Part shown: positions 13,470 through 31,492 of the stretch, piece after piece
Position numbering within the stretch: position 1 is the stretch's first letter
Layout: every line of letters starts with the position of its first letter
NCBI GenBank assembly: GCA_900454475.1
Contig: UGSS01000002.1
Span: 2,532,674 to 2,596,673, forward strand
Direction: 5' to 3'
Origin: [Pasteurella] mairii
GTDB taxonomy: Bacteria > Pseudomonadota > Gammaproteobacteria > Enterobacterales > Pasteurellaceae
DNA length: 64,000 nt
Translations under genes and position numbers: made by a program
Notes under the pieces: model-generated
The model's database searches: none
What the model was told of the DNA's origin: nothing
The model's input: only the letters and a program-made list of their open reading frames with translations

Positions 13470-14527
13470 GAGCCTATCCCAAATTCTGTGTAAACACCCA
13501 TTTCAACTTAACGGTGATCGTTTAGACGATCACCAAAATCAATCATAAATCGATTCATTGCCTGTTTCCAGTTTTGAATCGGTAGCATCCATTTTTTTGA
13601 CACTTCTTTCATCGCCAGCCATATCACTTTAAACACCGAATCATCTGTTGGAAACACATTGCGTTTTTTGATGACTCGGCGGATAACGCTGTTTAACGAT
13701 TCCACCGCATTGGTGGTATAAATCGCTTTGCGGATATCCGGAGGATAGCCAAAAAAGGTGGCGATATTTGCCCAATTTTCTTCCCAGCCTCTTACCACAA
13801 GCGGGTATTTTTCCTGCCATTTTTGCGAAAGTGCGGTCAGATTTTTTCGCGCTTGCGCCTCAGTTGGGGCTTGATAAGCCTGCTTCAAATCTGCCGTGAC
13901 CGCTTTGTAATCTTTCCACGAGACATACTTCAAGCTGTTCCGCACAAAATGCACAATACAAAGCTGAATCTTCGTTTGAGGATAAACCGCATCAAGCGGT
14001 CGATTTTGCCATTCCAGCACACGTTTTTTAACGGAATCCGTCACACGAGAAATGAGGCTGGTAGACACATCAGCATTATAGCGTTCTTTGGATATCTCAA
14101 CGATTTCTTGATTACTTAACCCTTTGGCATATAAGGCAATAATCTGCTCATCCATCCCCGTAATGCGAGTTTGGTTTTTCTTGATAAGTTGTGGTTCAAA
14201 GGTGCCATCACGGTCACGAGGGGTATCGATTTCTATCTCACTTTCATCACAAATCACGGTTTTGGACGTATAGCCATTAGTGCATTTTTGCCTTTTCGGG
14301 GCTGATGCTTTTCATAGCCAAGATGGTCAGTGAGTTCGCCATTTAGAGTAGCTTCAACCGTGATTTTTTTAAGCATGCGTGAAAACTGATTAAGGTCTTC
14401 CAGTGTTTTGAGGGGTTGGGCAAATTCTGCTGCCAAGGCGTGGAGTGGTTTTTCGTTCATAATAAAGTACCTGCGTCTGATATATTATCTCAGAAACAGG
14501 TATTTACACAATTTGGGGGATAAGCTC
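13470..14527 (-). mobile_element. Degenerate IS256-family insertion sequence
   Basis: Terminal inverted repeats can be aligned. The left end at 13470-13505 starts GAGCCTATCCC, then AAATTCTGTGTAAACACC. The right end, read inwards from 14527, starts GAGCTTATCCCCC, then AAATTGTGTAAATACC. They enclose a broken IS256-type transposase gene. At about 1.06 kb the element is shorter than the usual 1.3 kb, matching the internal loss in the transposase. I could not see an 8-9 bp target duplication at the outer edges. Confidence 0.8.
13508..14460 (-). pseudogene. IS256-family (mutator-type) transposase, frameshifted and internally deleted
   Basis: The N-terminal part starts at 14460 (M-N-E-K-P-L-H-A-L-A) and runs to about residue 60. 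A one-base loss near 14275-14285 then shifts the frame, since N-G-Y-T-S-K-T-V reads in the next frame. The rest (14257-13508) has R-P-L-D-A-V-Y-P joined straight to Q-T-K-I-Q-L-C-I-V-H. In intact relatives about 80 residues lie between these motifs, including the first two catalytic aspartates of the DDE triad. The similar V-Y-P/V-F-P-Q text at both edges suggests deletion at a short repeat. The downstream A-V-E-S-L-N-S block with the catalytic glutamate is intact. The enzyme must be inactive. Confidence 0.88.
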
Positions 14528-16856: not shown

Positions 16857-17345
16857 TTAGACGGAGTGAAACGCACGGTTAAAATAAACCAAGCCCTTTC
16901 CATCTTGTACATTGATATGATCAAGTTCTACTAAAAATAATGAATGTGTACCGACATTACGAATGTCCACAATTTTGCCTTTTAAATTGGCGATCGCATT
17001 TTTAAGTGCCGGAAGTGCATGAGCTTCATCCGCATTATGCCAAATATCCCAAGTAAAACGTTCTTCCATGCTGCTTCCCATAAAACCGGCGAAATGCTTT
17101 GCCAATTCATCTTGTTCAGCGGTTAAAATATTGACACATAGCTGTTTGTTTTGTTGGAAAACTGCATTCATTTCACTATTTTTGTTGATACAAACTGCCA
17201 GGGTTGGTGGTGAATCAGTGACGGAACAAACTGCGGTAGCGGTAATTCCGCATTTCCCAGCCGCGCCGTCGGTAGTAATAATATTAACCGCCGCAGCTAA
17301 TTTTGCCATCGCATTGCGAAATTCTTGTTGTACCGGAGTGAGCAT
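16857..17345 (-). CDS. hpaC: 4-hydroxyphenylacetate 3-monooxygenase, flavin reductase component
   Basis: HpaC reduces FAD with NADH and passes it to HpaB. From ATG 17345 (preceded by AAGGAGAAAATC) the protein has 162 residues, close to the enterobacterial enzyme (170). It has the flavin reductase-like fold with the blocks G-x-T-A-T-A-V-C-S-V-T-D-S-P-P near residues 35-49, N-K-N-S near 57-60 and a conserved C-terminal L-V-Y-F-N-R-A-F-H. A 9-bp inverted repeat and a USS lie in the 98-base gap after hpaB, which may tune the amount of reductase relative to oxygenase. Upstream methionine options lack a binding site. Confidence 0.93.
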   Translation of the reverse strand: MLTPVQQEFRNAMAKLAAAVNIITTDGAAGKCGITATAVCSVTDSPPTLAVCINKNSEMNAVFQQNKQLCVNILTAEQDELAKHFAGFMGSSMEERFTWDIWHNADEAHALPALKNAIANLKGKIVDIRNVGTHSLFLVELDHINVQDGKGLVYFNRAFHSV

Positions 17346-17425: not shown

Positions 17426-17443
17426 CACTTTTGCATTAAAATG

Positions 17444-19045
17444 TTATAATTTACTGATATTATTGAGATTTCCTAGGATGTTGATATCTTGAGAATCTGT
17501 TAAATGAGGGACGTTCCATCCGTTTTCATCATAATCAGACAAACATTGATCAACTAAATCAAAACATTTTTGTAAGGTGCCGTTAGCGGTTGATTGCCCT
17601 AAAACTTGTAAGCGAACTTCCTCTTGGCTGCCAGCATAGTTAATTTCGTACAATTCATGACGACCACCAAATTCTGTACCGATTGCATCCCAAAGTAATT
17701 TTAGGATTTTAATCCGTTGACGATATTCAATGTTATTTGAACCGCGTACGTATTTTTGTAGGTACTGATCAATCTCAGAGTTATTAAAATCGCGAATATG
17801 GGATGGCAAATAAATTAAACCACTGGTCACTGTTTGTTCGACAATTTTTTTAATCGTATGGTAAGCCATTGGTGCCATGACTCGATATGTTTGGATGGCT
17901 TGCTGATTTGGCATTTGGCAACCGTTTTTCCATTGATAAGAGGAACCATGCATGGCGTCCGTTAATGTCCAAAAGAGGTTGCGATACGCCATTACTTCCC
18001 CCATTTGCGCCGCTACCCCACGGAATTCAATTACCCCGGTACATTGTAGAGCTTTGTGGAGTAAACCGGTTAAGAAATCTAATTTTACCGCTAAGCGGGT
18101 ACAGGCTTGCATCGGGAATAGGCTGGCAAAACCGGCATATTGAGCCCAAGTGCGGCAACGATCTAAATCTTTATAAATTAAGATATTTTCTTTTGGAATA
18201 AATACTTTATCCAAAACCAAAATAGCATCGTTTTCATCAAAGCGCGTTGAAAGTGGGAAGTCAAATGGTGAACCTGTCGCACCGGCAGCAAGCTCATAAG
18301 AATGGCGGCAAATCAGTTTTACACCTTCTGCATCCATTGGCGCAATAAACATCAAAGCAAAATTATTATCGTTACCGATGATTTGTGCGGAACCAAAACC
18401 AATAAAATTATAGTGGGTGAGTGCTGAATTGGTGGCAACGACCTTTGCACCACTCACAATAATACCATCTTCCAATTCTTCTTCAATTTTGACGTAAATA
18501 TCTTTGACTTGGTCGATTGGTTTGTTGCGATCAATCGGTGGATTAACGATAGCATGATTGAAATATAAACAGGCTTCTTGAATACGTTTGTACCAAGCTT
18601 TGGCGTTGTCCGCATAATCACCGTAAAACTCACTATTGGCACCTAAAGAAGCGCCAAAAGCAGCTTTGTAATCGGGGGTTCTGCCCATCCAACCGTAGCT
18701 AAATCTTGACCAATCGGCAATGGCATCACGTTGTGCTTTTAATTCTTCAGCATTGCGGGCGTAGCGGAAAAATTTATGTGTGTAACCGCCATTACCGGTA
18801 TCGGTTTCCCAACAAAGTTGATCTTTGGTTTCAGGATCGTGTAGCGCGTCATATAACTTAGCAACGGATGCTGCTGCATTACGGAATGCAGGATGTGTTG
18901 TGACATCTTCGACTAATTCGCCATAAATATAGACTTTGCGTCCGTCTCTTAAACTGGCAAGGTATTCTTCTCCAGTAAAAGGGCGGTTAGTTTCTTTTCT
19001 AAAATCATCTGGACGTTGGTGAGTTTTTCGAGTTGCTTGTGTCAT
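17444..19045 (-). CDS. hpaB: 4-hydroxyphenylacetate 3-monooxygenase, oxygenase component
   Basis: HpaB hydroxylates 4-hydroxyphenylacetate to 3,4-dihydroxyphenylacetate using reduced FAD from HpaC. The 533-residue product (family about 520) has the acyl-CoA dehydrogenase-like fold. It shows the N-terminal R-P-F-T-G-E-E-Y-L-A-S-L-R-D-G-R, then V-N-P-P-I-D-R near residue 168 and the C-terminal G-T-E-F-G-G-R-H-E-L-Y near residue 460. The ATG at 19045 has AAAGGAG upstream. It is transcribed away from hpaA, from a promoter that carries the conserved hpa element at 19146-19181. Confidence 0.96.
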   Translation of the reverse strand: MTQATRKTHQRPDDFRKETNRPFTGEEYLASLRDGRKVYIYGELVEDVTTHPAFRNAAASVAKLYDALHDPETKDQLCWETDTGNGGYTHKFFRYARNAEELKAQRDAIADWSRFSYGWMGRTPDYKAAFGASLGANSEFYGDYADNAKAWYKRIQEACLYFNHAIVNPPIDRNKPIDQVKDIYVKIEEELEDGIIVSGAKVVATNSALTHYNFIGFGSAQIIGNDNNFALMFIAPMDAEGVKLICRHSYELAAGATGSPFDFPLSTRFDENDAILVLDKVFIPKENILIYKDLDRCRTWAQYAGFASLFPMQACTRLAVKLDFLTGLLHKALQCTGVIEFRGVAAQMGEVMAYRNLFWTLTDAMHGSSYQWKNGCQMPNQQAIQTYRVMAPMAYHTIKKIVEQTVTSGLIYLPSHIRDFNNSEIDQYLQKYVRGSNNIEYRQRIKILKLLWDAIGTEFGGRHELYEINYAGSQEEVRLQVLGQSTANGTLQKCFDLVDQCLSDYDENGWNVPHLTDSQDINILGNLNNISKL

Positions 19046-19119
19046 AAGATAGCTCCTTTGTTTATCCTAAATAAGATAATGAAAATAATTGGAGGAGAAA
19101 TTCCTCGAGAAAGTGTTTT

Positions 19120-19181
19120 ATTTATAAAGGAGTTTTTTTTATGACAAAATGCAATTTTCAGGCGAAAAATTGTACTTTTTC
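19120..19181 (-). promoter_or_regulatory. hpaBC promoter with putative HpaA operator
   Basis: Read on the minus strand, GAAAAAGTACAATTTTTC and then GAAAATTGCATTTT form a 36-bp block (19181-19146). After 14 bases comes TCCTTTATAAAT (19131-19120), a probable -10. The same block, spacing and -10 occur at the TRAP promoter (20218-20279) with 32 of 36 identical bases. AraC-family operators are usually such paired direct half-sites overlapping -35. Confidence 0.7.
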
Positions 19182-19208
19182 GTTGCAACCGAAGATTTGT
19201 TAAATTTT

Positions 19209-19224
19209 TGTGATCAAGATCTCT
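19209..19224. promoter_or_regulatory. CRP-like site in the hpaB-hpaA divergent region
   Basis: TGTGA-TCAAGA-TCTCT has one perfect CRP half-site. It sits between the divergent hpaB and hpaA starts. Two further TGTAC copies lie at 19229 and 19242 and echo the TGTAC core of the hpa element. Confidence 0.4.
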
Positions 19225-19301
19225 ATTTTGTACTCTGCTGATGTACAGCAAAAATTTCTTATTTTAGGATCCGATAAATAAGGCATAAATGGGGAAGGTG
19301 T

Positions 19302-20195
19302 ATGAATTGCGATATGACAACCGTAAGTAATGTCAACATTGAAGAAACCTATGGTCCAGCAGATGAAAATTCTATTGTGCATTATGAAACCTTTGATAAT
19401 TTAGCAAAATTTTATGGGCGAATTTCACCGGTACATTTTCATGATCGCTTTTATCAGATTCATTATTTAACTGTTGGTGAGATTTTTTTGCAGTTGGATG
19501 GGCAAGAACACTACCTGAAAGCCCCTTGTTTTATTTTTACGCCACCGTCTATTCCACATGGTTTTTATTCTGATGAGCATACGCACGGTTACGTTCTTAC
19601 TATTCCACAGGAGTTTATTTGGCAGCTTTTAACATCGTTGAAACGAGATATTAATTATTTTTATCCATTTTGTGTGGAACTGTCGCCAGAATATCAAGAG
19701 GATGATGAAAGTATTTGTTTATTCGAAAATTTTTTTACGATTTTGGCAAAAGAATATGCCAAAGTGAGTGCGGAAAAACCGAGCGCAATGCGTCTGTATG
19801 CTAAAATCATTTTGTTAGAAGTGTATCGGTTATCTAAAACGCATCAGATCCAATATGTGCCGAGTAGTCATGAACTTAGGTTATTTAACCAATTTAATTT
19901 ATTGGTGGAAGATAATTATAAAAATAACTGGAAAATCAAAGATTATTTGGACAAATTGTGTATTAGTGAAAGTCGTTTAAATTCATTGTGTCAACGTTTT
20001 TCTTCAGTTTCTCCTAAGCGCTTGGTAATTGAGCGATTATTACAAGAAGCGAAACGCAAATTGCGTTTTACTCAAGACTCTGTACATGAAATTGCCTATC
20101 AACTCGGGTTTAAGGATCCTGCTTATTTTTCCCGTTTTTTCCAAAAAGAGACGTCGTTTTCGCCAAAACAATTTCGCGATCAAGATCACATATAA
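19302..20195 (+). CDS. hpaA: AraC-family regulator of 4-hydroxyphenylacetate genes
   Basis: This is a probable activator of hpa genes in response to 4-hydroxyphenylacetate. The 297-residue product has an N-terminal cupin-like sensor (H-F-H-D-R-F-Y-Q-I-H, then F-T-P-P-S-I-P-H-G-F) and a C-terminal double helix-turn-helix. The C-terminal domain shows A-Y-Q-L-G-F-K-D-P-A-Y-F-S-R-F-F and ends S-F-S-P-K-Q-F-R. It lies between the divergent hpaBC operon and the long plus-strand operon, as in enterobacterial hpa clusters. The start could also be the ATG at 19314. Two copies of a shared element flank the gene and are its likely targets. Confidence 0.88.
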   Translation: MNCDMTTVSNVNIEETYGPADENSIVHYETFDNLAKFYGRISPVHFHDRFYQIHYLTVGEIFLQLDGQEHYLKAPCFIFTPPSIPHGFYSDEHTHGYVLTIPQEFIWQLLTSLKRDINYFYPFCVELSPEYQEDDESICLFENFFTILAKEYAKVSAEKPSAMRLYAKIILLEVYRLSKTHQIQYVPSSHELRLFNQFNLLVEDNYKNNWKIKDYLDKLCISESRLNSLCQRFSSVSPKRLVIERLLQEAKRKLRFTQDSVHEIAYQLGFKDPAYFSRFFQKETSFSPKQFRDQDHI

Positions 20196-20217
20196 TTAAT
20201 AATCTTTTCTGATTATA

Positions 20218-20279
20218 GAAAAAGTACAATTTTTCACAGGAAAAGTGCATTTTCATACCTCGTTATATCCTTTATAAAT
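20218..20279 (+). promoter_or_regulatory. TRAP-hpaGEDFHI promoter with putative HpaA operator
   Basis: GAAAAAGTACAATTTTTC then GAAAAGTGCATTTT (36-bp block 20218-20253) is followed after 14 bases by TCCTTTATAAAT (20268-20279). It matches the hpaB promoter in sequence, spacing and orientation relative to the gene served. Confidence 0.7.
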
Positions 20280-20380
20280 TTAACAAAAATATAACATTTG
20301 TATTAATGGTTTTGTGTGTGTTGTAAAACCGGTGATGCAAGTCCTCTATCAAGTATGCATTTCAACGAAGGAGATTGATT

Positions 20381-21412
20381 ATGAAATCAACAAAACTTTT
20401 AGTATCCGCATTGACTCTTGCACTATCAACTTCCGTTATGGCAAATGACAAAGTGATATTAAAAATCGGTCATTTTTTACCCGCACTTTCCACAATGCAT
20501 AGTCAAGTCATCGAACCTTGGTGTAAGGATTTAAACACGCAATCACAAGGTCTAATTGAATGTCAATTTTATCCTTCTAATCAATTGGGTGGCACGCCGG
20601 CACAGCTGATTGATCAAGTGCGTAATGGTGTTGCGGATATTGTCTGGACTGCACCGGGCTATACTAGCGGTCGATTTAAAATTATTGAAGGATTAGAAAA
20701 TCCTCTTCTTTTTCCAAATGCAGATGTGGGGAACAAGGTTGCTTGGGAATATTTTGAAAAATATGCCAAAGATACTGAATTTAAACCGTTCAAAATGCTT
20801 GCCTTACATACAGATGGCGGTGTGACCTTTCATTCAAATAAACCAATTACGCAAGTTGATGATCTGAAAGGATTAAAATTGCGAACGCCGACTCGTTTAG
20901 CCTCCCAAATTATACAAGCTTTGGGTGGTTCAGCAATTGCTATTCCGCCAGCACAAGTGGCAGAAAGTGTTTCAAAAGGCGTTGTTGATGGCGCGATGGG
21001 GGCTTGGGAGGTGGTGCCGCCGTCCAAATTGGATGAGGTGACAAAATATCATGTAATGCCTAGTGCGGGAGAACCATTTCCGACTGTAACGGTGTTGATG
21101 CTAGTGATGAATCAACAAAAATATAATCGTTTACCTGAAGATCTTAAACAGATTATTGATCGTAACTCCGGCTCGGTTTTAGGTGAGCGTATTGCTGCGG
21201 CATGGAAAATTGCAGAGGACGATGCACGTAAACGTGTACTGGATAATAACGGAGTAATTAGTGAATTTGGGCCTGAACAAACAGAAAAAATGCGTCAGTT
21301 GACCAAAACTATTAATCAAAACTGGACGATGGAAATGAGTAAATTAGGTAAAGATGGTCAAGCAATGTTGGAGGATTTACAACAAATGGTTAGAAGTTCC
21401 AGCCAACCATAA
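20381..21412 (+). CDS. TRAP transporter substrate-binding protein (DctP family)
   Basis: This is the periplasmic receptor of a tripartite ATP-independent transporter. The 343-residue product starts at ATG 20381 with AAGGAG seven bases before. It has a signal peptide ending near V-M-A at residue 21, and the family blocks G-L-K-L-R-T-P-T and a conserved arginine that normally binds a carboxylate. It heads the plus-strand hpa operon, so the ligand is probably 4-hydroxyphenylacetate or a related aromatic acid rather than a C4-dicarboxylate. That is inference from position and the shared promoter element. Confidence 0.85.
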   Translation: MKSTKLLVSALTLALSTSVMANDKVILKIGHFLPALSTMHSQVIEPWCKDLNTQSQGLIECQFYPSNQLGGTPAQLIDQVRNGVADIVWTAPGYTSGRFKIIEGLENPLLFPNADVGNKVAWEYFEKYAKDTEFKPFKMLALHTDGGVTFHSNKPITQVDDLKGLKLRTPTRLASQIIQALGGSAIAIPPAQVAESVSKGVVDGAMGAWEVVPPSKLDEVTKYHVMPSAGEPFPTVTVLMLVMNQQKYNRLPEDLKQIIDRNSGSVLGERIAAAWKIAEDDARKRVLDNNGVISEFGPEQTEKMRQLTKTINQNWTMEMSKLGKDGQAMLEDLQQMVRSSSQP

Positions 21413-21435
21413 GCTATGTTTGAGAGGAGAAATAT

Positions 21436-21963
21436 ATGACTGAATCCATACAAGGTATTGTAATTCCGCCGAAAGTTTCTCGTACTACTTTAGGGATGAT
21501 ACTGTTTCATGTGAGTAAATCCATGGCGATGATTGGAGGATTACTGTTTATTCTATTAATCGTTATGTCATGTTATTCCTTGATTGAACGTAAATTTGGT
21601 GGAACAGGTGTGATTGGTGATATTGAGATGATGCAAATGGGATGTGCGGTTGCTTCTTCATTATTTCTACCATTTTGTACCTTAATGGCAGAACACTTGA
21701 AAGTTGATTTTTTTACGTTGAAATTGCCGGCATATTGGCGGAATAAACTAGATGCCTTAGCAGATTTTGCCTTGTTATTTGTGGCGATACTTTTGGTTTG
21801 GCGTATTGGTTTACAAACCTTAGATATGTATGAATATGGAGAAGTAAGTACGTTACTTTCATGGCCGACATGGATTCCTAATTTATTAATATTGCCCGGT
21901 TTTTTAGTCATGGGATGCTGTTCTCTTTATTACTGCATTATCAATTTAACGGCGAGGAATTAA
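21436..21963 (+). CDS. TRAP transporter small permease (DctQ family)
   Basis: This is the small membrane subunit that works with the large permease in sodium-driven uptake. The 175-residue product has four hydrophobic segments. It has the typical block G-D-I-E-M-M-Q-M-G-C-A-V-A in the second segment and A-E-H-L-K-V-D after it. A GAGGAG binding site precedes the start. It lies between the receptor and DctM genes, with 2 bases between its stop and the dctM start. Confidence 0.88.
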   Translation: MTESIQGIVIPPKVSRTTLGMILFHVSKSMAMIGGLLFILLIVMSCYSLIERKFGGTGVIGDIEMMQMGCAVASSLFLPFCTLMAEHLKVDFFTLKLPAYWRNKLDALADFALLFVAILLVWRIGLQTLDMYEYGEVSTLLSWPTWIPNLLILPGFLVMGCCSLYYCIINLTARN

Positions 21964-21965
21964 AA

Positions 21966-23294
21966 ATGATGACTGGTTTAGAGATGGGGATTACCGGATT
22001 TTTTATCTTACTCACCTTATTATTACTTCGCATTCATATTGGTATCGCTATGTTTTTGGCTGCGGCAGGTTTGTATGCCTATTTAGGGCAGGGGGATTTA
22101 AATAATTTGATGTACACCCTTAATGGTTTGGCTTATGCCCGGTTATCAAATTATGATTTAGCTGTAGTACCTTTATTTATTCTTATGGGGCAATTTGCAT
22201 CAAATGGTGGTTTATCAAAATCGCTTTTCCAAGCGGCAAGTAGTTTTATTGGTCATTGGCGTGGCGGTTTGGCAATGGCAGCGACGGGAAGTTGTGCCGC
22301 GTTTGGTGCTATTTGTGGTTCGTCGTTGGCGACTGCGGCAACCATGGGGCAGGTTGCCATTCCAGAACTGAAAAAGCACCATTATTCAGGCAAATTAAGT
22401 ACAGCAACTTTGGCGGCAGGAGGAACTCTAGGCATTCTTATTCCTCCTTCGGTACCACTGATTATTTATGCGGTTTTAACTCAAGAATCGATCGGTAAGT
22501 TATTTGTTGCCGCGATTATTCCAGGCATGATTGCCTTATTGGGCTATATCATCGTGATTAAAATTTTGGTGACATTACGTCCTGAAGTCGGTCCGACGTC
22601 AGAAAAAGTCCCATTTATACAAGCATTAAAATCACAGATTAAAGTGTTGCCTATTTTTATCGTGTTTTTAGTGGTCATTATCAGTATTTACGGTGGTTGG
22701 GCAAATCCGACGGAATCTGCCTCCATTGGTGCGGCTGCTTGTGGCATTATTGCTTGGCTTTCTGGTGATCTGAAATGGAATGGGGTGGTTAATAGCATTT
22801 TGCAAACCGCTATTTCTAGCGCCATGATTTTTATGGTATTGATTGGGGCAGATTTATTAAATTCAGCATTAGCACTGACTCAAATGCCAAGTCAATTGGC
22901 AGATTGGGTAGTATCACAACAATTTGCCCCTTTATTTGTCTTGTTCTGCATCATTCTTATTTACTTAGTCCTTGGTTGTGTCATGGATTCTCTCGCCATG
23001 ATTTTACTAACGATTCCAATTTTTTATCCAATTATTCTCGGCTTAGATTTTTGGGGAATGTCGGCACAAGATAAAACGATTTGGTTTGGCATAGTTTCGT
23101 TAATGGTGGTTGAAATCGGATTGATTACTCCGCCGGTAGGGATGAACTTATTTATTATCAATAAAATGGATAAAGATACTCCACTACTTTCAACTTCTAA
23201 ATGGGTATTACCTTTTATTGCTTCAGACTTAATTCGTATTGCATTAGTGGCTGGGATACCAACAATTACGCTGGGATTGGTTCATTTACTTTAA
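21966..23294 (+). CDS. TRAP transporter large permease (DctM family)
   Basis: This is the channel-forming subunit of the TRAP system, 442 residues from ATG 21966 (GAGG upstream; an ATG at 21969 is equally possible). It is strongly hydrophobic with a dozen or so segments. It carries the family blocks G-Q-F-A-S-N-G-G-L-S near residue 74 and L-I-P-P-S-V-P-L-I-I-Y near residue 158. Near the C-terminus is G-L-I-T-P-P-V-G-M-N-L-F. It is followed after 20 bases by hpaG1. Confidence 0.9.
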   Translation: MMTGLEMGITGFFILLTLLLLRIHIGIAMFLAAAGLYAYLGQGDLNNLMYTLNGLAYARLSNYDLAVVPLFILMGQFASNGGLSKSLFQAASSFIGHWRGGLAMAATGSCAAFGAICGSSLATAATMGQVAIPELKKHHYSGKLSTATLAAGGTLGILIPPSVPLIIYAVLTQESIGKLFVAAIIPGMIALLGYIIVIKILVTLRPEVGPTSEKVPFIQALKSQIKVLPIFIVFLVVIISIYGGWANPTESASIGAAACGIIAWLSGDLKWNGVVNSILQTAISSAMIFMVLIGADLLNSALALTQMPSQLADWVVSQQFAPLFVLFCIILIYLVLGCVMDSLAMILLTIPIFYPIILGLDFWGMSAQDKTIWFGIVSLMVVEIGLITPPVGMNLFIINKMDKDTPLLSTSKWVLPFIASDLIRIALVAGIPTITLGLVHLL

Positions 23295-23314
23295 TCATGA
23301 GAATGGAGAAACGT

Positions 23315-23983
23315 ATGTCTGCTTCGTTAGCTAAACAAATTACACAATTGACGGAATTCAAACCCACCGTTTTTGTGATTGCTTTAAATGCCGAAAATTT
23401 ATTGGCTCAACATAAATCAACCTTTGAACAGGCACCGTATAAATCATTACCAATGACACCGGTAATTTATGTTTTACCCGAGGCGACACATAATCATAGC
23501 GGGTCAATGGTAACCGTACCGACGGATAAAACGACATTACGGGTAGAACCGCATTTAGGTGTGGTATTTAATGCACCAGTCTGTCGTGTCACAGTGGAAA
23601 ATGCCATGTCTTGTGTCGCGGGATATATTCCGGTAGCACTTTATTCATTGCCTCATGATAGTTATTACCGACCGGATATTGAAGGTCGCTGCCAAGAAAG
23701 TTTTTGTGTTTTAGGGCAACAAGTCAATCGTCTGGCAGTAGCTTCTCCGGAGGCGGTTAGAGTTGAGGTCAGTGTGAATCGACAGGTAAGCAAATGTTAT
23801 ACGCAGCCGAAAATGCAACGATCTATTGCTGAATTAATAAGTTTTCTGAGTCAATTTATTCCGTTTAAGCGGGGGGATATTTTATTAACCGGTACGGATT
23901 CTAATCCAATTTTAGTAGAAAGAGGTGACAATGTAGAAGTTTCATTTGTTGGGTTAGGATCGTTATCTAATCAGATTAATTGA
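23315..23983 (+). CDS. hpaG1: HpaG N-terminal-type protein (COHED decarboxylase subunit)
   Basis: This is a fumarylacetoacetate hydrolase-fold enzyme expected to decarboxylate 5-oxo-pent-3-ene-1,2,5-tricarboxylate (OPET) in the homoprotocatechuate path. The 222-residue product resembles the first half of the bifunctional E. coli HpaG. The C-terminal block R-G-D-I-L-L-T-G-T-D and a central C-V-A-G-Y-I-P-V are typical. The start at 23315 has GGAG six bases before; longer frames begin inside dctM. In E. coli the two halves are fused in one protein, while here they are separate adjacent genes. Confidence 0.82.
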   Translation: MSASLAKQITQLTEFKPTVFVIALNAENLLAQHKSTFEQAPYKSLPMTPVIYVLPEATHNHSGSMVTVPTDKTTLRVEPHLGVVFNAPVCRVTVENAMSCVAGYIPVALYSLPHDSYYRPDIEGRCQESFCVLGQQVNRLAVASPEAVRVEVSVNRQVSKCYTQPKMQRSIAELISFLSQFIPFKRGDILLTGTDSNPILVERGDNVEVSFVGLGSLSNQIN

Positions 23984-23993
23984 GGATATGAAC

Positions 23994-24758
23994 ATGAGTA
24001 AATATGCCAAAGTAATGTTCCAAAACCAAGTTCATAGTGTAGAGGTTTTGCCTAATGGATTATTAACCGAGCAACAACAATTACTTCCTTACGAAAGTGT
24101 TATCTGGTTGCCTCCCTCTAATGGAATGATGTATGCCTTGGGATTGAACTATGCAGACCATGCGACAGAGTTGGAATTTAAGCCGCCAGAAAAGCCACTA
24201 GTCTTTATCAAAACACATCATACCTATACGGGACATAAGCAAACAACTTGGCGTCCGGATAATGTGGAATATATGCATTATGAATGTGAATTAGTGGTAG
24301 TCATTGGTAAAACAGCTAAAAAAGTGCGGCGAGAAAATGCCATGGATTATGTAGCGGGTTATACGCTTTGTAATGATTATGCCATTCGTGATTATTTAGA
24401 AAATTATTATCGCCCTAATTTGCGTGTGAAAAATCGTATAGGTACTACGCCATTGGGACCTTGGATTGTGGATAAAGACGATGTGCCGGATCCGATGAAT
24501 TTACATCTAAAAACTTATGTAAATGGTGAATTATGCCAAGCAGGAAATACCCGCGATATGATTTTTGATATTAGTTATTTAATTGAATATCTCTCTCATA
24601 TTACGACATTACAACCAGGAGATATGATTGCGACTGGAACGCCGAAAGGATTAGCGGATGTTAAAGCGGGGGATTGTGTTGAGATCGAAATTGAACATAT
24701 TGGGAAATTAACCAATTATATTGTTAACGAGCAAACGTTTTTTAGCAGTATGAATTAA
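23994..24758 (+). CDS. hpaG2: HpaG C-terminal-type protein (HHDD isomerase)
   Basis: This protein is expected to isomerise 2-hydroxyhepta-2,4-diene-1,7-dioate to the 2-oxo form used by HpaH. The 254-residue product has the FAH-fold blocks A-L-G-L-N-Y-A-D-H-A near residue 44, H-Y-E-C-E-L-V-V-V-I-G (metal ligands) near 91 and I-A-T-G-T-P-K-G-L near the end. The ATG at 23994 is 8 bases after GAGG; one at 23988 would be too close to it. It follows hpaG1 by ten bases. Confidence 0.86.
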   Translation: MSKYAKVMFQNQVHSVEVLPNGLLTEQQQLLPYESVIWLPPSNGMMYALGLNYADHATELEFKPPEKPLVFIKTHHTYTGHKQTTWRPDNVEYMHYECELVVVIGKTAKKVRRENAMDYVAGYTLCNDYAIRDYLENYYRPNLRVKNRIGTTPLGPWIVDKDDVPDPMNLHLKTYVNGELCQAGNTRDMIFDISYLIEYLSHITTLQPGDMIATGTPKGLADVKAGDCVEIEIEHIGKLTNYIVNEQTFFSSMN

Positions 24759-24776
24759 TTTTATAGGGAGACGATT

Positions 24777-26243
24777 ATGAATATCATTAAACATTGGATC
24801 AACGGTAAAGAGGTGAGTAGTGAGCAAACCTTTGAAAACTTAAATCCAGCAACTGGGGAAGTCATTTGTCAGGTTGCCTCCGGTGGTGAGGCTGAAATTA
24901 ATGCCGCAGTTAAAGCTGCAAAAGATGCTTTTCCTAAATGGTCAAAAACGCCAGCAAAAGAACGAGCGCGTTTGATGCGAAAACTCGGAGAGCTTATTGA
25001 TAAAAATGTTCCTCAATTAGCTGAACTGGAAACGCTGGATACAGGTTTGCCGATTCATCAGACAAAAAATGTATTGATCCCTCGAGCATCACATAATTTT
25101 GAATTTTTCGCGGAAGTTTGTACTCGAATGAACGGTCATAGCTACCCAGTTGATGACAAAATGCTTAATTATACGCTTTATCAGCCGGTTGGCGTTTGCG
25201 GGTTAGTTTCTCCTTGGAATGTCCCATTCATGACTGCAACATGGAAAACTGCCCCTTGTTTAGCATTGGGAAATACTGCGGTACTGAAAATGTCTGAATT
25301 ATCTCCGTTAACAGCCAATGAATTAGGGCGATTAGTGTTGGAGGCGGGAATTCCAGAGGGCGTTTTTAATGTTGTGCAAGGTTATGGTTCAACTGCCGGT
25401 CATGCGTTAGTAACACATGATGATGTAAGAGCGGTCTCTTTTACGGGAGGAACTGCGACAGGTAAACATATCCTTAAAAATGCAGGTTTGAAAAAATATT
25501 CTATGGAACTTGGTGGTAAATCTCCGGTATTAATTTTTGATGATGCGGACTTGGAACGTGCATTAGATTCAGCATTGTTTGCGATTTTCTCGTTAAACGG
25601 TGAACGTTGTACTGCCGGCTCGCGAGTTTTTATCCAAGAAACGGTATATGACGAATTTGTTAAACAATTTGCAGCGCGGGCGAAGCGTTTGCTGGTAGGT
25701 GATCCACAAGATTTTAATACACAAGTAGGTTCCATGATTACCCGTCAACATTATGACAAAGTGACAGGTTATATTCGTATTGGAATTGAAGAAGGCGCTA
25801 ATTTATTAGCTGGTGGTTTAGAGCGTCCGCAAAACTTACCGTCACATTTACAAAAAGGCAATTTTATTCAACCGACAGTTTTTGCAGATGTTGATAATCG
25901 GATGCGTATTGCGCAAGAGGAAATTTTTGGACCGGTCGTTTGTTTGATGAAATTTAAAGATGAGGCAGAAGCTTTACGTTTGGCGAATGATGTGGAATAT
26001 GGTTTAGCTTCCTATATTTGGACCAAAGATATTGCAAAAGCATTGCGTTTATCTAATGGAATTGAATCCGGTATGGTGTTTGTAAATAGTCAAAATGTTC
26101 GCGATTTAAGACAACCATTTGGTGGCATAAAAGCCTCCGGTATTGGGCGAGAAGGGGGGGAATACAGTTATGAAGTATTTGCTGAAATTAAAAATGTTTG
26201 CATCTCAATGCATGATCACCACATTCCACGCTGGGGCTGTTGA
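24777..26243 (+). CDS. hpaE: 5-carboxymethyl-2-hydroxymuconate semialdehyde dehydrogenase
   Basis: HpaE oxidises the ring-cleavage semialdehyde with NAD. The 488-residue product is a full-length aldehyde dehydrogenase. It has the Rossmann-type S-F-T-G-G-T-A-T-G-K near residues 222-231 and the catalytic glutamate in M-E-L-G-G-K-S-P near 246. The catalytic cysteine lies in N-G-E-R-C-T-A-G-S near 280. It is set between hpaG2 and hpaD in the order seen in enterobacterial clusters. Near its 3' end the DNA contains a run of seven G. Confidence 0.94.
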   Translation: MNIIKHWINGKEVSSEQTFENLNPATGEVICQVASGGEAEINAAVKAAKDAFPKWSKTPAKERARLMRKLGELIDKNVPQLAELETLDTGLPIHQTKNVLIPRASHNFEFFAEVCTRMNGHSYPVDDKMLNYTLYQPVGVCGLVSPWNVPFMTATWKTAPCLALGNTAVLKMSELSPLTANELGRLVLEAGIPEGVFNVVQGYGSTAGHALVTHDDVRAVSFTGGTATGKHILKNAGLKKYSMELGGKSPVLIFDDADLERALDSALFAIFSLNGERCTAGSRVFIQETVYDEFVKQFAARAKRLLVGDPQDFNTQVGSMITRQHYDKVTGYIRIGIEEGANLLAGGLERPQNLPSHLQKGNFIQPTVFADVDNRMRIAQEEIFGPVVCLMKFKDEAEALRLANDVEYGLASYIWTKDIAKALRLSNGIESGMVFVNSQNVRDLRQPFGGIKASGIGREGGEYSYEVFAEIKNVCISMHDHHIPRWGC

Positions 26244-26262
26244 GTGAAATAGGAGAAACAGA

Positions 26263-27117
26263 ATGGGTAAACTTGCTTTAGCTGCTAAAATTACACACGT
26301 GCCATCCATGTATCTATCTGAATTACCAGGAAAAAATTATGGATGCCGCGCTTCTGCTATCGAGGGTCATAAAGAGATTAGCCGACGTTGTCGAGAGGCT
26401 GGTGTTGATACAATCATTGTTTTTGATACACATTGGTTGGTGAATAGTGCATATCATATTAATTGCTGCGATTATTTTGAAGGTGTTTATACCAGCAATG
26501 AACTACCACATTTTATTCGCGATCTTAGATTTGATTATGATGGCAATCCGGCATTGGGCCATCTCATTGTCGATAAAGCTATTGCTAAAGGCGTACGTGC
26601 GCAAGCACATGAAATCCAAAGCCTTAAATTAGAATATGGGACAATTGTACCGATGCGTTATATGAATGAGGATAAAGTTTTTAAAGTTATTTCAATTTCT
26701 GCATTTTGTACTTCCCATTCGTTTGATGATAGCCGAAAACTCGGAGAAGCGGTACTTGAAGCGATTAAGGAATATGAGGGTACGGTTGCTGTTTTAGCTA
26801 GCGGATCACTATCTCATTATTTCATTCCGGATAATTTGGCAAAAGACGGGATGAATCGTTATACCCGTGAATTTGAACATCAAGTGGATTTGCACGTTGT
26901 TGATATGTGGAAAAAAGGTAATTTCAAAGATTTTTGTACGATGTTGCCGGAATATGCTGAATTTTGTCGTGGTGAGGGGGGGATGCACGATACGGTGATG
27001 CTACTGGGAATGTTGGGTTGGGATCGTTATGATAAGTCGGTTGAAGTATTAACAGATCTTTTTCCAAGTTCTGGAACGGGACAAATTAATGCGGTATTTC
27101 CTGTAGATCACATATAA
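26263..27117 (+). CDS. hpaD: 3,4-dihydroxyphenylacetate 2,3-dioxygenase
   Basis: HpaD opens the ring of homoprotocatechuate by extradiol (meta) cleavage. The 284-residue product belongs to the LigB-type, iron-dependent class. It shows the N-terminal A-K-I-T-H-V-P-S-M metal-ligand block and F-D-T-H-W near residue 53. In the middle is A-S-G-S-L-S-H-Y-F, and G-E-G-G-M-H-D-T lies near the end. The length matches E. coli HpaD. An AGGAG precedes the start. It is followed by an 80-base gap with an unusual run of eleven G. Confidence 0.94.
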   Translation: MGKLALAAKITHVPSMYLSELPGKNYGCRASAIEGHKEISRRCREAGVDTIIVFDTHWLVNSAYHINCCDYFEGVYTSNELPHFIRDLRFDYDGNPALGHLIVDKAIAKGVRAQAHEIQSLKLEYGTIVPMRYMNEDKVFKVISISAFCTSHSFDDSRKLGEAVLEAIKEYEGTVAVLASGSLSHYFIPDNLAKDGMNRYTREFEHQVDLHVVDMWKKGNFKDFCTMLPEYAEFCRGEGGMHDTVMLLGMLGWDRYDKSVEVLTDLFPSSGTGQINAVFPVDHI

Positions 27118-27151
27118 GTCAGTATTGATTATCTCCCTTAGCTTGTTGTTC

Positions 27152-27162
27152 GGGGGGGGGGG
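27152..27162. repeat. G11 homopolymer between hpaD and hpaF
   Basis: Eleven consecutive G lie 35 bases before the hpaF ATG, in an otherwise AT-rich gap. Poly-G tracts of this length are prone to slipped-strand changes. It is intergenic, so it could only alter expression or message structure, not reading frame. Confidence 0.85.
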
Positions 27163-27197
27163 AAATCTAAAGGTTTATTTTTATATTCGGAGGAATT

Positions 27198-27578
27198 ATG
27201 CCTCATTTTATTGTTGAAGCGACAGATAACTTAAAAAAATCGTTTGATTTTCAACCGCTCTTTGCCGAGATACATGAATATCTTGCCTCAACCGGTGTAT
27301 TTCCGCTAGGTGGAATACGTAGTCGTGTACATTGGGTGGATGTTTATCGTATGGCAGATGGAAAAGAAGATGATGCGTTTATTCATATTACATTAAAAAT
27401 TGGGGCGGGGCGTTCAGTTGAATGTTTAAAACCTATTGGCGAGCAGGTTTTTAAGCGATTAACGGATTTTTTCGCTCCATTATTTGCAGAACGTTATTTT
27501 GCATTGTCATTTGAAATTTGTGAAATTCATGAGGTATTAAATTTCAAAAAAAATAATGTACATCTTCGCTTTAAATAA
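27198..27578 (+). CDS. hpaF: 5-carboxymethyl-2-hydroxymuconate delta-isomerase
   Basis: HpaF isomerises 5-carboxymethyl-2-hydroxymuconate. It is a small tautomerase-superfamily enzyme with a catalytic N-terminal proline, here M-P-H-F-I-V-E. The 126-residue product contains V-H-W-V-D-V-Y-R-M-A near residue 43 and F-I-H-I-T-L-K-I-G near residue 60. The length matches E. coli HpaF. A GGAGG lies just before the ATG. It sits between hpaD and hpaH. Confidence 0.93.
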   Translation: MPHFIVEATDNLKKSFDFQPLFAEIHEYLASTGVFPLGGIRSRVHWVDVYRMADGKEDDAFIHITLKIGAGRSVECLKPIGEQVFKRLTDFFAPLFAERYFALSFEICEIHEVLNFKKNNVHLRFK

Positions 27579-27610
27579 CCTATTCATTCAAAATTTATGG
27601 AGAATAATTC

Positions 27611-28414
27611 ATGTTATCTCGAGAAACAATTCAACAAGCGGCAGCACAATTAAATCAAGCAGAAAAAACACGTACGCAAATTAGCCAGTTTTCGTTAGCT
27701 TATCCAGAAATAACTATCGAAGATGCTTATGAAATTCAAAAGGCTTGGGTAGAAATGAAAATTGCCGAAGGACGAACATTGAAAGGGCATAAGATCGGAT
27801 TGACATCAAAAGCAATGCAAAATAGCTCGCAAATTGATGAACCGGATTATGGTATGTTATTAGACGATATGTTTTTTGAAGAAAATGATGCTATTCCTTT
27901 TGATCGTTTTATTGTTCCGCGGGTTGAAGTAGAACTTGCCTTTATTTTAAAGAAATCATTGAGTGGACCCAATTGTACTATCTTTGATGTGATTGATGCG
28001 ACGGATTATGTTATCCCAGCCTTGGAAATTATTGATGCGCGCATTGAACAATTTGATCGTATCACTAAAGTACCGCGTCGTGTGTTTGATACAATTTCCG
28101 ACAATGCCGCTAATGCTGGAGTTGTTTTGGGCGGTAGGGCGATTAAGCCGATGGATGTTGATCTACGTCGAGTCTCGGCAGTCCTTTATCGTAATGGTGT
28201 GGTTGAAGAATCCGGCGTTTCAGCGGCAGTTTTAAATAATCCGATTAAAGGTGTGGCTTGGTTGGCGAATAAATTATATCCCTATGGTGTGACCTTAAAG
28301 GCGGGGGAAATCATTTTAGGTGGTTCTTTTACGCGTCCTGTTGCTGCGGCACGAGGAGATACGTTTCACGTGGATTATCATGAATTAGGCAGTATTTCCA
28401 TGCAATTTGTGTAG
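27611..28414 (+). CDS. hpaH: 2-oxo-hept-4-ene-1,7-dioate hydratase
   Basis: HpaH adds water to 2-oxo-hept-4-ene-1,7-dioate, giving the substrate of the HpaI aldolase. The 267-residue product has the MhpD/FAH-like fold, with K-G-H-K-I-G-L-T-S near residue 57 and P-R-V-E-V-E-L-A-F near residue 104. Near the C-terminus is [10 protein letters not shown]. The length equals E. coli HpaH. It lies 8 bases before hpaI. Confidence 0.94.
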
Positions 28415-28422
28415 GTGACATT

Positions 28423-29223
28423 ATGCAAAATACCTTTAAACAAGCATTAAAAGAGAAGCGAGCGCAAATTGGATTATGGGTTGGGTTAGCAGATGGTTAT
28501 GCTTGTGAATTAGCTGCTAATGCCGGTTTTAATTGGTTATTATTAGATGCCGAACACGCGCCGAATGATTTACGTAGTTTGTTACATCAATTACAGACAA
28601 CAGCAGCTTATCCAGTGACGCCAATTATTCGTCCGGTGATTGGAGAAACTCATTTGATTAAACAAATGTTAGATATTGGTGTACAAACATTACTCATTCC
28701 AATGGTTGAAACAGCAGAACAAGCTCGCCAATTAGTACAAGCAATTCATTACCCTCCGAGAGGTATGCGAGGCGTAGGGAGCGCTTTAGCGAGAGCTTCC
28801 CGTTGGAATAATATTCCCAATTATTTGCATCAGGCTGATGAAGAAATTTGTTTATTGGTTCAAGTGGAAAATAAAGTTGGACTGGAGAATTTAGCAGAAA
28901 TTGTTGATGTCGAGGGGGTTGATGGCGTATTTATCGGTCCTGCCGATTTGAGTGCCTCGTTAGGGCATTTAGGTAATCCGTCGCATCCTGATGTACAGCA
29001 AGCCATTGAAGATGCAATTAAAACGATTACGCGAGCGGGTAAAGCCGCAGGGATTTTGTATGCGGATGAGCGAATGGCGAAACATTATTTAGCACAGGGG
29101 TGTACGTTTGTTGCAGTTGGTGTGGATACTTCATTATTGATGCAGTCGTTAAAAAATTTAGCACAAAAATTTAAAGGTCATTCTACAGACGCAATGAACA
29201 TGAATTCGTCTCAAGTTTACTAA
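28423..29223 (+). CDS. hpaI: 4-hydroxy-2-oxo-heptane-1,7-dioate aldolase
   Basis: HpaI cleaves its substrate to pyruvate and succinate semialdehyde. It is a class II, metal-dependent aldolase of the HpcH/HpaI family (266 residues). It shows L-L-D-A-E-H-A-P near residue 41, with the acidic metal ligand in V-Q-V-E-N-K near residue 146. The loop G-P-A-D-L-S lies near residue 171. It is followed 10 bases later by the dehydrogenase gene that would use its semialdehyde product. Confidence 0.94.
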
Positions 29224-29233
29224 AGGAGTAAAT

Positions 29234-30685
29234 ATGCATTATTTCCCGCTTCTTAAAACGCAAGCTTATATTAACGGACAATATGTGGATGCAGAAGATC
29301 AGAAAACGTTTCCCGTTATCAATCCGGCTACTTTAGAAGAAATTTGTCGAGTATCGGATCTTGGGGTAAAGGAGACTGAACAAGCGATTTTATCCGCGAA
29401 GAGCGCGCAACCATTATGGGCAAAAGTCTTGCCTAAAGAACGTGCGAATATTTTACGTCGTTGGTTTGACTTGATCATACAAAATCAAGAAGAGTTGGCG
29501 CAACTGCTAAGTTTGGAACAAGGCAAACCGATTGCAGAAAGTCGAGGGGAAATTGCCTATGGCGCCAGTTTTATTGAATGGTTTGCTGAAGAGGCAAAAC
29601 GGATCTGTGGTGACCTACTATCTCCGGATAAAGCTCATCATCGTTTAATGGTGATCAAGCAACCGATAGGTGTGGTTGCGGCGATTACACCTTGGAATTT
29701 CCCTAATGCAATGATTACCCGTAAAGCGGCACCAGCATTAGCTGCTGGTTGTACTATCGTTATCAAGCCGGCAGCAGAAACTCCTCTTTCAGCATTGGCG
29801 TTAGCTGAATTGGCGCATCAAGCAGGATTGCCGAAAGGAGTGTTGAACGTGGTAACCAGTACTGACGCGATTGGGGTGGGCAAAGTATTAACGGAGCATC
29901 CGATAGTTCGCAAGGTAACCTTTACCGGTTCGACAAGAGTTGGAAAAATCTTGATGCAACAAGCTGCAAGTACAGTAAAAAAATTAGCCTTGGAGTTGGG
30001 CGGGAATGCGCCGGCTATTGTATTCGATGATGCGTCTCTTGATGATGCGGTAGAGGGGGTGTTTGCTTCGAAATTCCGCAACAGCGGACAGACTTGTGTT
30101 TGTACTAATCGTATTTATGTTCAATCCGGTATTTATGCACAATTTATCGAAAAATTCACCGAGAAAGTTCGTGAAGTAAAATTGGGGGCTGCTAATGAAC
30201 CCAATGTTACCATGGGACCATTAATTAGTTCGGCTGCTGTTACTAAAATTCAGCAACATATCCAAGATGCACGACAAAAAGGGGCAAAATTGGTGTTAGG
30301 AGGTGAGGTGAGTGAATTAGGTGGCACCTTTTTCCAACCTACGATTTTGTGTGATGTGACACAATCAATGCAAGTCTCTCGTGATGAAGCTTTTGCGCCA
30401 CTAGCGCCTATTTTTAAATTTGAAACTGAAGAAGAAGTGATTCAAATGGCGAACGAGACTGAATTTGGTTTGGCATCTTATCTTTTTACCCAGGATATTA
30501 GTCGCATTTGGCGTGTTTCTGAAGCCTTGGAATATGGCATGGTTGGTATTAATGAGGGTTTGATTAGTAACGAAATTGCGCCATTTGGTGGTATTAAAGA
30601 ATCTGGATTAGGGCGAGAGGGTTCAAAATATGGCATAGAAGAATTTTTGGAATTAAAATATCTTTGCTTAAAAATTACGGGCTAA
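29234..30685 (+). CDS. gabD: NAD(P)-dependent succinate-semialdehyde dehydrogenase
   Basis: This enzyme oxidises succinate semialdehyde to succinate, closing the 4-hydroxyphenylacetate route into the citric acid cycle. The 483-residue product is a standard aldehyde dehydrogenase. It shows T-P-W-N-F-P near residue 151, F-T-G-S-T-R-V-G-K near 229, the catalytic glutamate in L-E-L-G-G-N-A-P near 252 and the catalytic cysteine in N-S-G-Q-T-C-V near 286. The order and tight spacing after hpaI indicate a pathway role here rather than GABA metabolism. No clear terminator follows. Confidence 0.92.
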   Translation: MHYFPLLKTQAYINGQYVDAEDQKTFPVINPATLEEICRVSDLGVKETEQAILSAKSAQPLWAKVLPKERANILRRWFDLIIQNQEELAQLLSLEQGKPIAESRGEIAYGASFIEWFAEEAKRICGDLLSPDKAHHRLMVIKQPIGVVAAITPWNFPNAMITRKAAPALAAGCTIVIKPAAETPLSALALAELAHQAGLPKGVLNVVTSTDAIGVGKVLTEHPIVRKVTFTGSTRVGKILMQQAASTVKKLALELGGNAPAIVFDDASLDDAVEGVFASKFRNSGQTCVCTNRIYVQSGIYAQFIEKFTEKVREVKLGAANEPNVTMGPLISSAAVTKIQQHIQDARQKGAKLVLGGEVSELGGTFFQPTILCDVTQSMQVSRDEAFAPLAPIFKFETEEEVIQMANETEFGLASYLFTQDISRIWRVSEALEYGMVGINEGLISNEIAPFGGIKESGLGREGSKYGIEEFLELKYLCLKITG

Positions 30686-30748
30686 TTTTGCTAAATATAC
30701 CTGTTTTCTAACTGTTTCTGGAAGCCGGAATGGCGATAGCAGCACATT

Positions 30749-31492
30749 TTATTGAGAAAAATGCGCTTTTTTAATCTGATAAATTTCTCTTTTTTCTCGA
30801 TCAATTTCTGCCTGAATGGAAAATGCACGCATTAAATTTTCTGGTGTTAATACGTATTCCGTTGCGCCATGGGCGATGATTTTCCCTTTGTCTAACAGGA
30901 TAATTTCATCACAAAACCGGTAAGCGAGGGAAAGGTGGTGGATGGCGACAATACAGGTTTGTTGTGGCGTAATGGATTTGAGTTGTTCCATAATGTCAAT
31001 TTGATAGTAAGGATCAAGCGGCGCGATAGGTTCATCTGCCAGTAACAACGGTGTGTTTTTGATGCAACAACGTGCCAATTGTACGCGGGCTTTTTCGCCA
31101 CCAGAGAGCTGTTGAAAAGGCTTTTTCAGTAGATGAGTAATTGAAAACTGCGTAGAAATTGACCGCACTTTTTGTTGTTCTTCTGCTGTTTTTAATGGAT
31201 AAGGTAAGCCTAAGGCAATCACATCATAAACGGATAAATCCCAGTAAATTGGTGTATTTTGTGCCAAATAAGCCAGTTGCTCGCTGCGTTGTTTGGCGCT
31301 CATGTGGGATAAGCGCTTATCCGCTAGCCAGATTTTCCCTTCGTTTAGCGGCAGAATGCCGGCGATGCTTTTCAGCAAGGTCGATTTTCCCGCTCCGTTA
31401 GCGCCCATAATACCGATTAATTTGCCTTGCGGGATTTGGCAATTGAGGTGGGACAACCCGTAGGCGAGGGTGACGTTTTCCAATTTAATCAT
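30749..31492 (-). CDS. ABC transporter ATP-binding protein (BtuD/FecE type)
   Basis: This is the ATPase of an iron-chelate, haem or cobalamin importer. The 247-residue product shows Walker A G-A-N-G-A-G-K-S near residue 30, the signature L-S-G-G-E-K-A near 121 and Walker B L-L-L-A-D-E-P near 143. Its start overlaps the permease reading frame by 8 bases, so they are coupled. The substrate cannot be told from this subunit. With the permease gene frameshifted, it may have no partner in this strain. Confidence 0.88.
   Translation of the reverse strand: MIKLENVTLAYGLSHLNCQIPQGKLIGIMGANGAGKSTLLKSIAGILPLNEGKIWLADKRLSHMSAKQRSEQLAYLAQNTPIYWDLSVYDVIALGLPYPLKTAEEQQKVRSISTQFSITHLLKKPFQQLSGGEKARVQLARCCIKNTPLLLADEPIAPLDPYYQIDIMEQLKSITPQQTCIVAIHHLSLAYRFCDEIILLDKGKIIAHGATEYVLTPENLMRAFSIQAEIDREKREIYQIKKAHFSQ

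Follow-up and report, generated by a model that had tools for sequence, protein, structure and literature searches.

The window, a stretch of 64,000 nucleotides (64 kb) from [Pasteurella] mairii, holds a gene cluster predicted to serve the catabolism of 4-hydroxyphenylacetate. The hydroxylase genes hpaCB are divergent from the regulator gene hpaA, and genes for a TRAP transporter and for meta-cleavage follow hpaA on its strand:

16857–17342, minus strand: hpaC, reductase component (TIGR02296, 250.6 bits, cut-off 205.95)
17444–19045, minus strand: hpaB, 4-hydroxyphenylacetate 3-monooxygenase oxygenase component (TIGR02310, 1079.5 bits, cut-off 885.2)
19302–20195, plus strand: hpaA, AraC/XylS-family activator (TIGR02297, 398.7 bits, cut-off 274.65; HTH_18, HTH_AraC and AraC_binding)
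20381–23294, plus strand: TRAP transporter genes (binding protein 20381–21412, small subunit 21436–21963, large subunit 21915–23294)
23363–30685, plus strand: meta-cleavage genes hpaG1, G2, E, D, F, H and I and an aldehyde dehydrogenase gene, separated by short gaps

The gene names given in the initial annotation hold: HpaA, HpaB, HpaC, HpaE, HpaG-N and HpaI all exceed curated NCBIfam cut-offs, and the HpaA match covers positions 2–287 of the 287-position profile. The remaining meta genes are named by their position and by matches in relatives, and we infer that the meta-cleavage genes form one operon. The TRAP binding protein scores over the cut-off of NF037995 and matches PF03480. Most of the 60 matches listed for it among solved chains bear TRAP or DctP names, and the best listed chain, 5im2, is named for an export signal only. 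The membrane subunits are named from position and sequence only, and the ligand of the transporter is predicted to be 4-hydroxyphenylacetate. The interval from hpaA to the TRAP genes (20196–20380) holds no terminator-like site, thus read-through from hpaA may also feed the TRAP-meta operon.

To the left of the cluster lies an open reading frame that resembles, by eye, a piece of a transposase (13508–14257). The sequence AAGTGCGGT, which we take to be the core of the Haemophilus-type DNA-uptake signal sequence, occurs 35 times in the window, as befits a member of the Pasteurellaceae, and not once in the 13.7 kb from hpaB to the last dehydrogenase gene (17431–31161). Two other searched genomes of the same genus have neither HpaB nor an HpaA over cut-off. 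The signal-free stretch and these absences from congeners are hints that the cluster arrived recently.

Twin promoters of hpaB and the TRAP-meta operon

The initial annotation described a 36-bp block that occurs twice with 32/36 identity, each copy being followed by 14 bases and then an identical sequence. The arm listing reproduces this exactly. The hpaB-side block (19181–19146, minus strand) and the TRAP-side block (20218–20253, plus strand) are identical at 32 of the 36 positions of their arms (89%), and 3' of both, after a 14-nt gap, stands TCCTTTATAAAT (19131–19120, minus strand, and 20268–20279, plus strand). No 36-nt match between these upstream regions exceeds 32, and in 1000 dinucleotide-preserving shuffle pairs the best match averaged 21.5 and never went beyond 25. 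In the organism's own genome (2.61 Mb, two contigs), a pattern of the two blocks with up to three mismatches matches these two places only.

Each block consists of two tandem 14-nt half-sites near GAAAAGTACATTTT with a period of 21 nt, i.e., two helical turns, and is thus a direct repeat. This refines the pairing of half-sites that had been proposed: the two halves are not unlike each other; a single 14-nt unit is repeated. The register of the -10 element is fixed in both promoters. It begins 28 nt past the second GT register, which would place a normally spaced -35 element over the final bases of the proximal half-site. In class II operators of the AraC/XylS family, tandem half-sites lie about two helical turns apart and the proximal one overlaps the -35 element; araI1-I2 and the XylS Pm site are direct repeats of this kind, with a period of about 21 nt and the proximal half-site over the -35 element. 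The sequence of the blocks shows this geometry, with the position of the -35 element deduced from the -10 element, and agrees with the earlier proposal of an AraC-family operator overlapping -35. The likeness to araI1-I2 and Pm is one of geometry, whereas sequence and ligand differ and the operator described here is a prediction from sequence. The predicted elements are as follows:

19206–19227, minus strand: CRP-like box of the hpaB promoter (predicted function), weighted consensus score 24 of 32, its centre 36 nt ahead of the first half-site
19167–19180, minus strand: predicted distal HpaA half-site of the hpaB promoter, in direct-repeat register, mean column conservation 0.92
19146–19159, minus strand: predicted proximal HpaA half-site of the hpaB promoter, over the expected -35 element, 21-nt period, conservation 0.90
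19121–19126, minus strand: predicted -10 element TATAAA of hpaBC, conservation 0.96, expected start near 19114
20172–20193, plus strand: CRP-like box of the TRAP-meta promoter (predicted function), 24 of 32 points, spacing equal to that of the hpaB side, within the last codons of hpaA
20219–20232, plus strand: predicted distal HpaA half-site of the TRAP promoter
20240–20253, plus strand: predicted proximal HpaA half-site of the TRAP promoter
20273–20278, plus strand: predicted -10 element TATAAA of the TRAP-meta operon, expected start near 20285

A conservation profile of eight promoters from four genera, anchored on the first half-site, gives the highest mean column conservation to the half-sites (0.92 and 0.90) and the -10 element (0.96), followed by the CRP-like box (0.73) and the spacer (0.71); elsewhere the values are 0.53–0.61. 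Over 36 nt, pairs within a genome agree at 25–31 positions, orthologues at 28–32, and unlike copies across genomes at 26–31. These differences are small, and in the sequences there is no sign that the two copies arose anew in each species. A sigma-70 scan finds no promoter-like pair in the right orientation at either site. This counts for an activator-type promoter, although as weak support because the scan as a whole found no more sites than shuffled sequences did (6 as against 6.4 expected).

The upstream boxes were scored against the TGTGA-N6-TCACA palindrome, the consensus of CRP. In all 14 family promoters, the best CRP-like box is centred 35–36 nt before the first half-site and scores between 23 and 30 of 32; the score of 24 of the organism's own two boxes corresponds to the 99th percentile of 130-mers of the window. 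Among 17 enteric promoters, the centre lies 24–25 nt before the first half-site in 11, 35–36 nt in four, and elsewhere in two, and four of the 15 well-placed boxes score 19–21, short of the 22 that marks the 95th percentile. The family boxes are thus displaced from most enteric ones by about one helical turn. With scores this modest, it is the fixed spacing that mainly argues for these predicted CRP sites. Since the TRAP-side box lies inside hpaA codons (20172–20193), selection on the protein may account for some of its conservation. The tail codons FRDQDHI-stop (20172–20195) spell the box, a possible case of dual coding; an RD(Q/R)(D/R)H tail is common to six aligned family HpaA proteins and is not seen in the aligned enteric ones.

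Distribution in the family and counterparts in enteric bacteria

Among 140 genomes of the family, HpaA exceeds its cut-off in seven, from four genera, and HpaB is found in the same seven. When one mismatch is tolerated, the block pattern finds 13 sites, each in one of these genomes, so that HpaA, HpaB, and the block coincide exactly; it matches none of the other 133 family genomes, and a reversed control pattern matches nowhere. The pattern was derived from these very sites, and it is the absences that are informative. Conservation in related clusters, which the initial annotation had set in advance as a test of the operator, was found at both promoters in all seven genomes. The order hpaCB, hpaA, TRAP genes, hpaG is identical in all six relatives whose loci were fetched. 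In a class-wide draw of 369 genomes, HpaA was found in the organism's own genome only.

One copy departs from the rule. The TRAP copy of genome G051 has a period of 19 nt, being 2 nt shorter between the half-sites, and escapes the pattern; the other 13 of the 14 promoters keep 21 nt. At the same locus (L040:7303–19898), the matches to trapM, hpaG2, and hpaE are each broken up, and decay or an assembly error is a possible cause of both the split genes and the short repeat. Gene content varies at another point of the cluster: an open reading frame that by eye resembles an MFS transporter lies between hpaF and hpaH in one relative (L035:18074–19273), and an hpaF-hpaH gap of similar size is present in L036, L037, L039, and L040 and missing from L038 and the window.

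The enteric comparison rests on 16 clusters in which hpaB lies downstream of hpaA, namely those of E. coli, Providencia, Erwinia, Pantoea, and Klebsiella and of 11 order genomes of family f18. All 16 hpaB promoters have a GAAAAGT core, a conserved stretch 21 nt further on, and the same -10 register. The fuller form of the motif is GAAAAGT(A/G)CC, the second stretch is GTC(T/C)CTTC in most, and the -10 element is TTCAAT or TTAAAT. The second enteric half-site is partly like the first. The repeat is clear in E. coli (AAAAGTACC and AAAAGTCTC) and weaker in others (AATCGTCCC, and TTCATCTC in Pantoea), and the sequence of this half-site differs between the enteric and the family groups. The last 110 alignment columns of HpaA, the helix-turn-helix part, are 47–48% identical to three enteric HpaA proteins, as compared to 27–33% for the rest of the protein.

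A half-site matrix was built from 17 enteric sites, i.e., 12 of the 18 fetched non-family matches of the order and the five named records. It includes G282, in which the gene that follows the site is not identified as hpaB, hence the hpaB counts of 16 (five named records and 11 others). Left out were G412 (no hpaB in the stretch), G370 (no hpaB beside hpaA), and four genomes of family f3, and the HpaA records of Photobacterium and Acinetobacter were kept out of the counts. In the AT-rich window, this matrix ranks the TRAP site fourth and the hpaB site outside the top five. In the 20-kb stretches of the relatives, it places both sites in the top five in L035, L036, L037, and L039, one site in L038, and the hpaB site with the proximal half of the TRAP site in L040. 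The family sites score 4.4–18.5 and the training sites 26.7–44.5. A 36-column matrix from five enteric sites was tried and rejected, as in the window the hpaB block came only fifth and the TRAP block was not among the eight places shown, probably owing to over-weighted spacer columns; the half-site matrix outdoes it and is still weak in AT-rich DNA.

Beyond these clusters the motif is patchy. Four f3 genomes have HpaA together with a complete or partial hpaB; of these, two (G398 and G425) have the exact GAAAAGT(A/G)C before hpaB, with the GAAAAGTACC core 115–120 nt upstream and, in G425, the second half 1 nt off; no exact core was found before hpaB in the other two (G141 and G449). The Acinetobacter record holds no convincing site. 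In Photobacterium (L016:11921) and G370 (L061:13090), GAAAAGTACAA occurs upstream of hpaA on the opposite strand. The Photobacterium copy is followed by a divergent open reading frame that looks, by eye, flavoprotein-like, and it may be an HpaA site at another hydroxylase.

The hpaB promoter of E. coli is reportedly activated by HpaA with 4-hydroxyphenylacetate, and HpaA serves as a biosensor input (PMC4468947). The blocks are best read as an HpaA operator because the enteric hpaB promoters, of which the E. coli one is reportedly HpaA-activated, share the core, the spacing, and the -10 register. The alternative that the blocks are operators of another regulator, be it a repressor or an AraC-type protein other than HpaA, with HpaA a mere neighbour, draws on the further AraC-type proteins that occur in the family as HpaA matches under the cut-off and on HpaA binding being a prediction. 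It is made quite improbable by the co-occurrence of block, HpaA, and HpaB in exactly the same 7 of 140 genomes and by the match to the enteric promoters, the E. coli member being reportedly HpaA-activated (PMC4468947, PMC7180172).

Control of the meta operon in the presence and absence of HpaR

In E. coli W, HpaA is reported to activate hpaBC but to leave the meta operon to repression by HpaR (PMC7180172). HpaR exceeds its cut-off in each of the 14 genomes with HpaA from three other families of the order (f16, f18, and f21), in none of the seven of the organism's own family, and in none of the four of f3, which means that it can be missing in another lineage as well. The best HpaR match in the organism's own genome reaches 37.3 bits, the cut-off being 121.2. 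At an E-value of 1e-20, HpaR was found in 0 of the 140 family genomes; no control genome matched in that search, and the search of f16, f18, and f21 serves as the positive control.

In the hpaR-hpaG gaps of the enteric clusters, the enteric matrix gives 7.4 or less in 15 of 17 cases, far from the training range of 26.7–44.5; this shows that enteric-type sites are lacking there, not that every HpaA site is, given the low scores of the family sites themselves. The gaps of Klebsiella (14.2) and G215 (13.3) contain a partial site, a GAAAAGTACC motif in a register unlike that of hpaB. At L015:4575 in Klebsiella and L062:6097 in G215, GAAAAGTACC is accompanied by a second half-site-like stretch. With the family matrix, the G215 gap scores 23.6 and the other 16 score at most 14.5. 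Judged from these matches, HpaA may act at the hpaR-hpaG region in some enteric bacteria.

The cluster shares its meta-cleavage gene set with the meta operons of E. coli and Yersinia. In contrast to those, it has no HpaR over cut-off, an activator-type site stands in its place, and TRAP genes lead the operon; an hpaX-like permease has no match in the fetched family stretches. The reported behaviour of HpaA in E. coli W (PMC7180172) raises the alternative that HpaA acts at hpaB only, the TRAP copy being a relic of promoter duplication and the operon depending on some other source of transcription, such as read-through from hpaA. The lack of a terminator-like site ahead of the TRAP genes and the altered TRAP repeat of G051 would suit such an arrangement. 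A relic should drift like its flanks, however, and the TRAP copy is conserved as well as the hpaB copy: it keeps the half-sites, the period, and the -10 element in six of the seven genomes, and its orthologues match at 28–32 of 36 positions, the same as for hpaB. It is thus very unlikely that the TRAP copy is without function in HpaA control. That the blocks are a dispersed repeat, either mobile or made of degenerate uptake signals, is hardly credible and was rejected on copy number, family absences, and the positions of AAGTGCGGT, for although AAGTGCGGT is abundant in the window and AAGTGCATT within one half-site resembles it, none of its 35 exact copies lies in either block, the conserved portion is GAAAAGTAC and not the GCGGT end, the genome has two copies of the block and the other 133 family genomes none, and enteric bacteria share the conserved part.

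A predicted HpaA switch for the whole pathway

Taken together, in the presence of 4-hydroxyphenylacetate HpaA very probably activates hpaBC as well as the TRAP-meta operon through the two blocks, as predicted class II AraC operators. We infer strongly, on sequence grounds, that the TRAP transporter and both catabolic operons would belong to a single regulon. The best reading of the arrangement is a variant of the known HpaA/P_BC switch that stands in place of HpaR control. Like P_BC of E. coli W, the promoters described here combine a regulator of the same family with the GAAAAGT core, the 21-nt spacing, the -10 register, and an upstream CRP-like box, as seen at the hpaB promoter of an E. coli record. 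They differ from it in that the TRAP-meta operon has a second, equal module of its own, the half-sites share few bases beyond the core, the CRP-like box lies about one helical turn further upstream, and hpaB is divergent from hpaA rather than downstream of it.

On this predicted HpaA switch, an HpaA dimer with its ligand, 4-hydroxyphenylacetate, would sit across both half-sites, its subunits adjacent and on a single face of the DNA, and the proximal subunit would contact RNA polymerase at the poor -35 element. cAMP-CRP would add catabolite control via the CRP-like box. In a lineage lacking HpaR, an additional hpaB-type promoter, copied to the TRAP-meta operon, would have given HpaA the role that HpaR has in E. 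coli W. As to the ligand, HpaA of Serratia reportedly binds 4-hydroxyphenylacetate by calorimetry in PMC10364317, the table of which gives 4-hydroxybenzoic acid for the same value. The literature search found neither an HpaA operator sequence nor an account of hpa regulation in Pasteurellaceae in the available texts, and earlier E. coli promoter papers, of 1997 and 2003, may print the operator.

It also appears rather probable, with less assurance than the action of HpaA at the two promoters, that in this family every step of 4-hydroxyphenylacetate use, TRAP uptake and the last meta enzymes included, left HpaR repression for control by HpaA by means of two copies of a rigid CRP-HpaA module, the second CRP box of which lies in the last codons of hpaA. 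A consensus of two half-sites, with its spacing and promoter register, can now be proposed for the HpaA operator, enteric bacteria included. The cluster would thereby be a case of regulatory rewiring, in which the pathway is the same, HpaR is absent, and HpaA is predicted to have taken over the target of HpaR via a copied promoter.
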